A DNA stretch of 26,868 nt. Origin: a virus. The notes beneath the pieces were generated by a model. That model was given only the letters and a program-made list of their open reading frames with translations, did not search any database and was not told where the DNA came from. The first letter of the stretch is position 1. The number at the start of each line of letters is the position of its first letter. The stretch is taken from positions 1 to 26,868 of IMG/VR virus record IMGVR_UViG_3300045996_000283. One strand, written 5' to 3'. Of this stretch, positions 19,572-22,242 are shown in pieces. A program made the translations under genes and the position numbers.

Positions 19572-19964
19572 ATGCTTCCCGTTCCGAGTTTCCCGGTCAC
19601 GGCTGGGGTCAAGATCGCCGCTAGCTTCGCTCTGGCCGTCGGTCTGTTCATTGCTGGATGGCTGGCCAACGGATGGCGGCTCGGAGCAGAGCTGGCAGAC
19701 GTACGGGCCGAACATGCCGGCCAGGTTGCCATCCAGGCGACGGCGGCGCTCAGCACCATGAAGGCCGACGCCGACGCCATTCACGCGGCAGCCCAGCAGC
19801 TCGGCGCCATCGAAATCACGCTCGGTCCGAAGATCGACGCGCTCAAGAAGGAGATCAGAAATGCGAAGCCTTTGCCTGCTGGTTGCGTCCCTGACGCTGG
19901 CCGCGTGCGCAACCTCGACGCCGCAATCGACGCCGCCAACGCCGCGGCCGCAACTCGACAGTAA
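19572..19964 (+). CDS. Rz: i-spanin (Rz-like)
   Basis: 130 aa, inner-membrane spanin subunit. An N-terminal anchor (about residues 10-33, VTAGVKIAASFALAVGLFIAGWLA) is followed by a periplasmic helical part rich in Ala, Glu, Asp and Lys (ADVRAEHAGQVAIQATAALS, ALKKEIRNA) and a C-terminal AAIDAANAAAA. AAAGG precedes ATG 19572. The gene for Rz1 starts inside its end, in another frame (104-base overlap), the classic spanin arrangement. The pair fuses inner and outer membranes at the last lysis step. Confidence 0.85.
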   Translation: MLPVPSFPVTAGVKIAASFALAVGLFIAGWLANGWRLGAELADVRAEHAGQVAIQATAALSTMKADADAIHAAAQQLGAIEITLGPKIDALKKEIRNAKPLPAGCVPDAGRVRNLDAAIDAANAAAATRQ

Positions 19965-20106
19965 GCTGGCAGAGCCTTGCCCGGCGATCGGCAAGCCTGA
20001 AGCGGCCGACTACGATATCTGGTTGCTGTGGGCGCTGGATCTGCTCGAGCAGTACGGCGCCTGCGCGGCGAAACACGCTAAGACGGTTCAGGCCTGGCCG
20101 AAATGA
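19861..20106 (+). CDS. Rz1: o-spanin lipoprotein (Rz1-like)
   Basis: 81 aa. A signal peptide MRSLCLLVASLTLAAC with lipobox LAAC would give a mature lipoprotein beginning at C16. The mature part starts Pro-rich (STPQSTPPTPRPQ), as in Rz1 proteins, then has a conserved-looking WLLWALDLLEQYGACAAKHAK. A strong AAGGAG is 7 bases before ATG 19861. It overlaps the Rz gene out of frame. The mature protein is longer than lambda Rz1 (40 aa) and more like the longer o-spanins. Confidence 0.88.
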   Translation: MRSLCLLVASLTLAACATSTPQSTPPTPRPQLDSKLAEPCPAIGKPEAADYDIWLLWALDLLEQYGACAAKHAKTVQAWPK

Positions 20107-20115
20107 CGGCTGCTA

Positions 20116-20135
20116 TACTGTATGCATGTACAGTA
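20116..20135 (+). promoter_or_regulatory. LexA (SOS) box overlapping a promoter and start codon
   Basis: Seven-base arms TACTGTA and TACAGTA separated by six bases give CTGT-N8-ACAG, the beta/gamma-proteobacterial LexA operator. A -10-like TATACT (20114-20119) overlaps its left arm. No clear -35 is seen. The ATG at 20126 lies inside the box. Confidence 0.8.
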
Positions 20136-20470
20136 AAGTTAAAATCCTTCGGCGCAATGGGGAGCGCCGGCCGGACCGGGAGATAGCGTCTGATCCGGGT
20201 ATCGTCGGCCACATCTCCATGTGCGTGATCGTCAACTACACTGTTTTGAAGATCTTTGCGCCTGGTGGAACCGGCGGCCGGGCGCCGCTGGTACCCGAGC
20301 TATTCCGCGCGCACTGCACGACCATCGAAGGCGCCCGCATGCTCTTCCGTGGATTTAACCGGATCGGAAATCAGGACGACGAGAATGCGCCAGTGGTGCG
20401 TCAGGAGTGGGCCGTTGAGATCATGGTCGAGCAGCCCGAGCGTATTGCTCAGCCGACAAACCGGCTGTGA
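20126..20470 (+). CDS. SOS-controlled protein of unknown function
   Basis: 114 aa, not recognised. The N-terminus is basic (MYSKVKILRRNGERRPDRE), then comes a hydrophobic strand (CVIVNYTVLKIFA), a Gly-rich bend, and a beta-rich end (ARMLFRGFNRIGNQ, QEWAVEIMVEQP). The ATG at 20126 is inside the SOS box and about 7 bases after the TATACT hexamer, so the mRNA may start at the ATG with no leader; no ribosome site exists upstream. An internal ATG at 20219 is an alternative start. Its stop at 20470 abuts the stop of the opposite-strand gene. Likely a lysogenic accessory (moron) gene or an SOS-timed phage factor. Confidence 0.65.
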   Translation: MYSKVKILRRNGERRPDREIASDPGIVGHISMCVIVNYTVLKIFAPGGTGGRAPLVPELFRAHCTTIEGARMLFRGFNRIGNQDDENAPVVRQEWAVEIMVEQPERIAQPTNRL

Positions 20471-20650
20471 TTAGAACTGCCTGCGCTCATGGTGCGGCGC
20501 CGCCAGAACCCGGTCGGTGACGGCCGGCGGCACTTGGCGCATGTTGAGGAATGCGCGCGCGGCGTCGTCTCCAAAAGCTCGCTGCATGGCGATTGCTTCT
20601 CTGACCTGCTGGGCGGTTTGCGTGTCGTGGCGAGGGGAGTGAGGGGGCAT
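20471..20650 (-). CDS. Small basic protein, unknown
   Basis: 59 aa from ATG 20650, with GGAG five bases upstream. Pattern: TQTAQQVREAIAMQRAFGDDAARAFLNMRQVPPAVTDRVLAAPHHERRQF, helical with R-x-F-L-x-M. Similar small proteins are common in Burkholderiales as I recall them; function unknown. A weak -10 (TATAAC, 20678-20673 on this strand) and a -35-like TTGCAG (20699-20694), spacing 15, are a possible promoter. Convergent with the SOS gene, stops touching. Longer in-frame start at 20686 has no ribosome site. Confidence 0.6.
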   Translation of the reverse strand: MPPHSPRHDTQTAQQVREAIAMQRAFGDDAARAFLNMRQVPPAVTDRVLAAPHHERRQF

Positions 20651-20872
20651 GGAGGCTCCGAGTAAAACCGACGTTATAGCACGCATCGGCGCCCTGCAAA
20701 AACTGCGCTATTCGACAGAAGCGACTCCAATCAATACAGGCACTTAACGCAGCGGCCCGGCGGAACCAATAGCGCAGCTCGCGGTCTGCAAGCTACTGAT
20801 TCCAATCACGATATTGCTGAGCGGCGGTCTGACTTCTAAGCAGATGCTCCGATCTGGTGAAGCTGTCCGCGC

Positions 20873-20884
20873 GTTCCGCAATTC
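20873..20884 (+). repeat. Arm-type repeat, copy 1
   Basis: GTTCCGCAATTC, identical to the copy at 21097-21108. It lies about 110 bases left of the tRNA-derived core and is a candidate P-arm integrase site. Confidence 0.5.
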
Positions 20885-20984
20885 AATCCATCGCCCGCGT
20901 TTTCCCAGCGGAGCAGCGTCACTGGTCCGGCTGAATTGAGGAACGGTTTTGTAGAGCAAGTCCTTGATTTCGCTCAGTGTTCCT

Positions 20985-21034
20985 GTGGACTCATAATCCG
21001 TTGGTGCCCGGTTCGACTCCGGGGAGGCCTACCA
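20985..21034 (+). other. attP core: 3' half of a CAT-anticodon tRNA
   Basis: The sequence matches a tRNA from the anticodon stem to the 3' CCA: anticodon loop CTCATAA (anticodon CAT, 20992-20994), TGGTG variable loop, T-stem CCCGG/CCGGG with TTCGACT loop (21007-21023), 3' acceptor strand GAGGCCT, discriminator A and CCA (21032-21034). No matching D-arm is visible upstream. This is the segment a phage carries to rebuild a host tRNA-Met or tRNA-Ile2 on integration. The integrase gene lies next to the 3' side, as expected. Confidence 0.8.
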
Positions 21035-21091
21035 AATAAATCCCTGTAGATTCAAACGGTTAGCGCCGATTCTGCCGCGATTTTCCGAACT

Positions 21092-21113
21092 GCCGAGTTC
21101 CGCAATTCTCGGC
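21092..21113 (-). terminator. Hairpin downstream of integrase
   Basis: GCCGAG / CTCGGC with a ten-base loop, 20 bases past the integrase stop. No T-run follows on the minus strand, so termination is weak or the stem has another role. The loop contains one GTTCCGCAATTC repeat. Confidence 0.3.
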
Positions 21114-21124
21114 ATGTTCCGCAA
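21097..21124 (+). repeat. Arm-type repeats, copies 2 and 3
   Basis: GTTCCGCAATTC at 21097-21108 and GTTCCGCAA at 21116-21124, same orientation, 19 bases apart. They are candidate P'-arm sites between the core and the integrase gene. A degenerate TTTCCGAA is at 21082-21089. Confidence 0.5.
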
Positions 21125-21132
21125 AATCCCCG

Positions 21133-22242
21133 TTACCTGGTCGGCTTGACCAGCTTGCCCCGGCGGTGGCGCACGTACTTCAGGGTCATGCTTTGAGTCG
21201 CATGTCCGAGCTGATCCTGCGCGCCCTGCATGCCGGCAGCCTCTTCCTTGTCGGTACCGGCCTTCGCGCGAAGGTCGCGGATCTGATATTCCTTGATCGA
21301 CGCTGCCAAGTCAGGCCGCGCGGCTGCCGCCGCTTTTCTGGCGCGGTCGAAAGCCCGACGGACTTCGCCCTCACTGATCGGATAGCCGTCGTCGTTGTTG
21401 AGCAACATGAGGCTTTTCGACGGGCGCCTGGCAATGGCCGCCAGCAATTCAGCCAAGGCGCCTTCATTGGCCAGGCGCAGTCGCTTCCCAGTTTTGTTCT
21501 GCTCGACCGCGATCCATCCATCCTTGATGTCAGACTTCGTGATTTTCCTAACGTCGGCCGGTCGCTGACCTGTCAAATATGCGAGGTCCAGCACATCGCG
21601 CAAAGCCGGTTCGGCATGCTCCCAAACCACCTGGTAGACCTCGTCCTCGACGTACACATCCCGCCCGCTTTCGCTGTGTCCACGGATGCCGGCGCACGGA
21701 TTCGTCATCCGTGTCAGGCCTGCTTGGCGGGCGAAGTTCCAGATATGGGAGAACAGGGCCTTCTCACGATTCGCACGCACGTGCCCAAGGTCGGGCTTTA
21801 CCTCAAGCGGTGCCTTCTTTTCTTGGACCCGCTTGGCGTTCTTGAGCCGCGCCTGCTCGACCGCTTCCTTTACCCGCCATGCCAGGTACTGACCCACATG
21901 AACCGGCTCGATATCGTCGAGTGCGATCGGCGGGTCGTCGTAGAAGCGGTACAGCCAGGCCAGCTCGGCCAGATTGTCCTTCTGAGTCCGCGGCGCTTTC
22001 GTCGGCAATACTTCCTTCAGATAGCGCTCGGCAGCCATCCGGAAGGTAACCCTAGGCGCCGAATCCTCATCCTTTATTGTCAGCTCCGCCCATTTGCGAA
22101 CAGCTTCCACATAGTCCTGGCCCAGCGAGATCTCGCGCCGCGGCGATTCGCCTGTGTCGAGGTAGTAATACACCTTGTCCCGGCGGTAGCGCGCGCGCAT
22201 ACCGGTCGGGAGATTCTTATTCCTGGTTGGTTGACGGCCCAT
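21133..22242 (-). CDS. int: Tyrosine recombinase (integrase)
   Basis: 369 aa, catalyses integration and excision at the neighbouring att site. The N-terminal 40 residues (MGRQPTRNKNLPTGMRARYRRDKVYYYLDTG) are a lambda-Int-type arm-binding domain, about 65-180 the core-binding SAM-like domain, and 195-369 the catalytic domain. Catalytic residues visible: R227 (TGQRPADV), R325 in RDLRAK, H347 (QLGHATQ), Y356 (KYVRHRRG). The usual first His of the H-x-x-R box is Arg (R322), as in a known subgroup of these integrases. ATG 22242 shares a base with the stop of the DUF4224 gene (TAATG). It is the last gene of a long minus-strand operon. Confidence 0.95.
   Translation of the reverse strand: MGRQPTRNKNLPTGMRARYRRDKVYYYLDTGESPRREISLGQDYVEAVRKWAELTIKDEDSAPRVTFRMAAERYLKEVLPTKAPRTQKDNLAELAWLYRFYDDPPIALDDIEPVHVGQYLAWRVKEAVEQARLKNAKRVQEKKAPLEVKPDLGHVRANREKALFSHIWNFARQAGLTRMTNPCAGIRGHSESGRDVYVEDEVYQVVWEHAEPALRDVLDLAYLTGQRPADVRKITKSDIKDGWIAVEQNKTGKRLRLANEGALAELLAAIARRPSKSLMLLNNDDGYPISEGEVRRAFDRARKAAAAARPDLAASIKEYQIRDLRAKAGTDKEEAAGMQGAQDQLGHATQSMTLKYVRHRRGKLVKPTR

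Follow-up and report, generated by a model that had tools for sequence, protein, structure and literature searches.

The viral DNA analysed here, a stretch of 26,868 nucleotides (hereinafter designated the window), contains a predicted LexA operator that includes the start codon of a 114-aa open reading frame (ORF). Read from its sequence, this ORF is probably a host-LexA-repressed, leaderless accessory gene of the moron type, located at that end of a temperate phage which carries the attachment site. LexA control of the gene is highly likely and a leaderless start of its mRNA is predicted with good, if lesser, assurance, while as to function we lean towards an activity in damaged lysogens that is not under the control of the phage repressor.

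Predicted operator, promoter and start codon overlap within 25 bp

The predicted elements and the gene that they govern are arranged as follows.

20111–20119, + strand: extended –10 element TG-C-TATACT (TGCTATACT), with TG at 20111–20112 and the hexamer at 20114–20119
20116–20135, no strand assigned: predicted LexA operator TACTGTATGCATGTACAGTA, CTGT-N8-ACAG, 8/8 core bases
20126, + strand: predicted transcription start, the A of ATG, placed by the –10 spacing
20126–20470 including the stop codon, + strand: 114-aa ORF for a predicted small PH-like β-barrel protein of an unnamed family, its first codons inside the operator

The palindrome TACTGTA-N6-TACAGTA, which the initial annotation had proposed as a LexA operator, is read directly from the sequence at 20116–20135 and is the sole intact site in the window. 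CTGT-N8-ACAG, the LexA motif of beta- and gammaproteobacteria as defined in PMC8565304, occurs at one site in 26,868 bases (0.16 expected from dinucleotide shuffles), with half-sites that are the full TACTGT/ACAGTA; the next best sites in the window match the core at 7 of 8 bases and lack the TACTGT/ACAGTA palindrome. Both overlaps claimed for the operator are equally direct readings: its bases 11–13 are the ATG (20126–20128) of the 114-aa ORF, and its left end is overlapped by a TATACT hexamer that itself follows TGC. Since no σ70 –35/–10 pair was scored in 19800–20750, a genuine promoter here would have to be an extended –10 one. A hexamer at –12 to –7 places the canonical +1 on 20126, the A of ATG, in agreement with the transcript start at or next to the ATG that had been predicted. 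No Shine-Dalgarno sequence was found upstream of this ATG. The sequence criterion for a LexA regulon is a palindrome within the promoter region, that for leaderless genes a –10 element 6–7 nt before the start codon and an absent Shine-Dalgarno sequence, and the window shows both.

In the lysogen, a LexA dimer bound at 20116–20135 would mask three elements at once: –10, transcription start and start codon. RecA filaments would induce LexA self-cleavage and so release the promoter; RNA polymerase would then start at or next to the A of ATG and produce a leader-free mRNA, which ribosomes would have to engage via its 5′-terminal AUG.

The gene lies between the lysis genes and the likely attachment site

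Three neighbouring features define the position of the SOS gene.

19861–20106, + strand: ORF for an o-spanin-like lipoprotein (MRSLCLLVASLTLAACATSTPQ...), the last lysis gene before the SOS gene, its lipoprotein signal read by eye
20987–21034, + strand: likely attP core, the 3′ half of a CAU-anticodon tRNA gene, with matches in carrier-family genomes
21133–22242, – strand: tyrosine integrase, convergent with the SOS gene, relatives 41–61% identical

The o-spanin stop (20106) and the SOS-gene start are separated by 20 bases on the same strand, so the gene does directly follow the spanins as annotated initially; its claimed separation from the late operon is uncertain, as no convincing terminator was found between the two genes. 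The 48-base core recurs exactly in several carrier-family genomes and in near matches in more. Because this tRNA piece is the likely attP core, the gene would sit at the very end of the integrated prophage, the usual place of accessory genes. Its relatives in phages and prophages also lie between lysis or late genes and the integrase, and integrase PHROGs are present among the neighbours of the homologues. A position flanked by lysis genes on one side and integrase/attP on the other, shared by relatives, fits the accessory-gene reading offered initially. DNA-level searches of phages and plasmids yielded no near relative of the whole phage.

In one genome the tRNA core occurs exactly at two places separated by 24 kb (G813:C1:2663018 and 2687177), as expected for an element integrated at the tRNA. 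Repeats resembling GTTCCGCAATTC flank the attP core (20870, 21094 and 21109; region 20866–21124) and resemble integrase arm-type sites.

Most homologues found without using the operator retain it

Searched alone, the window protein has no match in Pfam, in PHROGs or among phage records. When viral contigs were scanned for the pattern TACTGTATNNATGTACAGTA, many sites were returned, most of them with short or unrelated ORFs. On seven of the scanned contigs, however, the ORF that begins within the box encodes a complete or partial protein similar to the window protein; the six full-length ones are 26–38% identical to it in an alignment. To counter selection bias for the box, residues 1–8 were removed from the query (alignment A4); searched in this form, it found 33 homologues, on 32 viral contigs and one MAG contig. 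The box is present in the same register in 24 of them (22 with an 8/8 core, two with TACTGG), always preceded by TA to form TATACT, and nine have no box. Conservation of the box among homologues had been put forward initially as a check on the operator, and it holds among members found without using the box. The homologues also favour the proposed start: they begin at the ATG inside the box and none at the equivalent of ATG 20219, the alternative start whose use had been named as a counter-argument, and which we rejected because homologues align from 20126.

Profile searches of genomes detected members in 4 of 398 genomes of a phylum sample, 12 of 349 of one order and 23 of 195 of one family, the last being probably betaproteobacterial. 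The six viral members found via the box itself were excluded from unbiased counts. The metagenomic viral contigs come from few sampling sites, with near-copies among the members, and member starts are inferred.

Among known profiles, phrog_5560 (no function assigned) is matched by 4 of 7 and 14 of 29 members scanned (best E 2.7e-12); the window protein itself gives no match to it at E ≤ 1. Of 29 members compared with Pfam, NCBIfam and PADLOC, none has a meaningful match; two Pfam matches are at chance level, and the DinI domain of Pfam is absent. A tblastn search of INPHARED phages with five members found no match, and a sixth member gave a single weak, fingerprint-consistent match to pAN_24 of Pseudomonas phage vB_PstS-pAN. 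No clear PDB homologue was found by sequence. The protein family was previously unnamed and is without annotated function.

The operator constrains the N-terminal codons

We classified 59 intact members by the position of the box relative to the start: 35 carry it across the start (hereinafter designated fused members), six have a box with 7–8 of 8 core bases wholly upstream (by 19–51 nt) and 18 have none. Clustering at 60% identity reduces them to 33 clusters, 14 with an overlapping box, 6 with an upstream box and 13 without. TATACT is found in 33 of the 35 fused members and TG in 18. Codon 2 is TAC in 31 and CAC in 4, and codon 3 is AGT in 28 and AGC in 7, giving an M-Y/H-S N-terminus in which the synonymous TAT and TCN never occur. 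These two codons vary freely in members without a start-overlapping box, and in one member that has lost the box (L189) they read TAT AGC. A regulatory site can therefore fix the N-terminus of a protein, because the operator is also coding sequence. On the non-coding side, TATACTG is invariant in the 14 fused-cluster representatives, and bases further upstream vary.

Among the members found by genome search, 17 of 28 have a box with 7–8 of 8 core bases near the start, compared with 19 of the 520 genes that served as controls from the same regions. The operator, the –10 element and their register are kept in relatives with quite different upstream genes. The fused arrangement is not bound to one N-terminus, since in member L203 the fused box precedes a 19-residue N-terminal extension. 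On the family tree, which has few firm branches, the fused state calls for a minimum of five changes and all three states together for a minimum of ten.

We considered and rejected a general cassette common to proteins that are unrelated to one another. Many LexA boxes returned by the pattern scan happen to contain an ATG at short or unrelated ORFs, so that an ATG within a LexA box does not by itself indicate a gene. Another protein, of 74 aa (MYSIYLGEGIVGNELHERV...), starts in the same LexA-box pattern on seven contigs (L003, L013, L045, L058, L074, L101 and L102), where the TA before the box is absent.

A leaderless layout is also seen in members without the box

Fused members alone cannot prove leaderless expression, because the operator fixes the position of their –10 element. 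Among the 18 box-less members, TANNNT starts at –12 or –13 in 12, compared with 4% of 272 control ORFs, and in those 12 it is found nowhere else between –27 and –6. Shine-Dalgarno cores occur in 2 of 59 members compared with 43% of control ORFs, whose starts were assigned mechanically and are in some cases wrong, which if anything lowers the control rate. The binomial p values (~3e-13 for TANNNT and ~3e-12 for Shine-Dalgarno) are optimistic given the relatedness of the members; counted by cluster, the hexamer is present in 8 of 13 box-less clusters (authors' count). Two members with an upstream box, L201 and L202, are exceptions that apparently use ribosome sites. Retention of a –10-like hexamer at –12/–13 without a Shine-Dalgarno sequence in box-less relatives strengthens, at the level of sequence, the leaderless start suggested in the initial annotation.

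More tentatively, and with somewhat more doubt than confidence, we propose that the whole family, phage and bacterial, may be expressed via leaderless mRNAs, its temperate-phage branch having a fused 25-bp module of operator, promoter, start and codons, in which the operator sets the N-terminus of the protein. If true, this would provide a dedicated channel by which an SOS effector is translated from 5′-AUG mRNA while ordinary initiation is compromised.

The box follows the LexA motif of the host

The lexA auto-operators of carrier genomes read TACTGTACAAAAATACAGTC and similar. A lexA operator of the CTGT-N8-ACAG type is present in 15 of 16 genomes with a boxed member versus 2 of 7 with a box-less member (Fisher p = 0.003), a test made on carrier genomes, to whose family the window's host probably belongs, judging by attP-core matches. 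Such tracking is predicted by control through host LexA and not by a phage-encoded repressor. Three or four of the seven box-less carriers have another lexA palindrome, GGTGATA-N4-TATCACC or similar. Some members without a LexA box lie in chromosomes without phage genes, often as stand-alone genes, so SOS control is not universal in the family; no new SOS motif was seen before the box-less chromosomal members.

Upstream of lexA in four genomes of the same order (L287, L288, L289 and L290, in G415, G707, G533 and G625, respectively), we observed GGTGATA-N4-TATCACC or TGGTGATAATGTTTTCACCA, palindromes that suggest a non-canonical LexA motif. A betaproteobacterial LexA motif is attributed to Sanchez-Alberola et al. 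2015, as cited in PMC8565304.

One member, L166 (JANINJ010000013.1, a MAG labelled Xanthobacteraceae), has a perfect CTGT-N8-ACAG box, and the lexA operator in its bin is of the GAAC-N7-GAAC kind and looks alphaproteobacterial. This case is probably a misbinning, or else a cross-host phage or a host in which the box would fail.

Alternative explanations

Tum of coliphage 186 is likewise encoded by a small gene under LexA control close to the attachment end, and the resemblance in size, control and position would suit a LexA-controlled antirepressor of the Tum or Gifsy type that inactivates the phage repressor after SOS induction, the more so as the window stops before any immunity region and leaves the phage's own repressor unseen. 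However, about ten of about twenty carrier viral records encode an S24-peptidase repressor (self-cleaving type) or a related S24 protein; in G899 such a gene lies ~5 kb from the family member. With S24-type repressors encoded by many carriers, an antirepressor would add nothing there. Some members, moreover, are stand-alone genes in chromosomes or lie beside genes for SRAP (SOS response associated peptidase), and we consider an antirepressor unlikely. Somewhat less likely still is a normal late gene that ends the lysis operon and is read from a read-through mRNA, with the operator adding minor control or none. The close, co-directional o-spanin stop and the want of a convincing terminator speak for it, but the ribosome site that a longer mRNA would need is absent, and operator, –10 element and register persist whatever genes lie upstream.

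Phages often carry their own operators, and the genome of L166 has a LexA motif other than that of its box, so that the palindrome might belong to a phage-encoded repressor instead of host LexA. The perfect CTGT-N8-ACAG, its occurrence as a single site instead of a cluster, and the association of box presence with the lexA operator type of the host make this very improbable. Half of the box is coding sequence and could in principle be a by-product of a conserved MYS N-terminus, or the box a chance occurrence. We find this scarcely credible, as the non-coding half is kept in the 35 fused members, the TAT and TCN synonyms are never used there, and six members carry the box wholly upstream. Control by host LexA of a leaderless accessory gene therefore stands as our preferred reading.

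Comparison with known systems

LexA-repressed accessory genes of prophages include Tum of phage 186 and the dinI-type genes of lambdoid and Gifsy prophages. The window gene resembles these SOS-controlled morons in being small, in standing apart from the main lytic operons behind a predicted operator for host LexA, and in its expected expression in the damaged lysogen. It differs in that operator and start codon are fused, the operator coding for N-terminal residues, in that the protein belongs to another, unnamed family, and in that many carriers already have S24-type repressors.

Lambda cI has been used in leaderless reporters (PMC8138138). As for cI transcribed from PRM, the mRNA here is expected to start from AUG, with a –10 element 6–7 nt upstream and no Shine-Dalgarno sequence; unlike cI, the window gene would be controlled by LexA and not by the phage repressor, and its leaderless layout is kept family-wide, box-less members included. 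PHROG 5560 provides neither function nor regulation, and the window protein falls short of its profile.

We found no description of a LexA box over a start codon, nor of a LexA box combined with leaderless expression in a prophage, in the literature searched, which mostly excluded subscription journals; the family-conserved fused operator-start module and the family-wide leaderless layout are likewise undescribed there. The gene offers a compact, testable case joining SOS control and leaderless translation, topics rarely combined. It also defines a gene family, often with predicted SOS control, that is present in roughly an eighth of the genomes sampled from a single family, and the fused layout provides an easy rule for finding further such genes.

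Fold and neighbourhood

AlphaFold models are confident (pLDDT 88 and 96) and show a single helix beside a small barrel. Among structural matches, RanBD, PH, EVH1 and the EndoMS N-domain rank highest, all of them weak (Z 6.4 to 5.2, rmsd about 3, 69–86 residues aligned; best Foldseek E 0.014), and a fold search of a viral structure library returned nothing below E 0.2. The modelled PH-like barrel suggests a binding module, not an enzyme, with structural matches too weak for homology.

SRAP genes adjoin three divergent members. SRAP (HMCES/YedK; PF02586) is tied to SOS operons and prophages (PMC3765255). Like the present family it comprises SOS-linked genes of phages and bacteria, but the proteins are unrelated and the connection is one of association. 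These recurrent neighbours point to the DNA-damage response. From neighbourhood and fold together we conjecture, with reservation, that the protein might bind a component of the DNA-repair or SOS machinery, as a partner protein or an adaptor. Phage SRAP genes on three contigs (L017 9136, L041 1221 and L076 11384) have a perfect LexA box (TACTGTACATTCATACAGTA) ~70 nt upstream.
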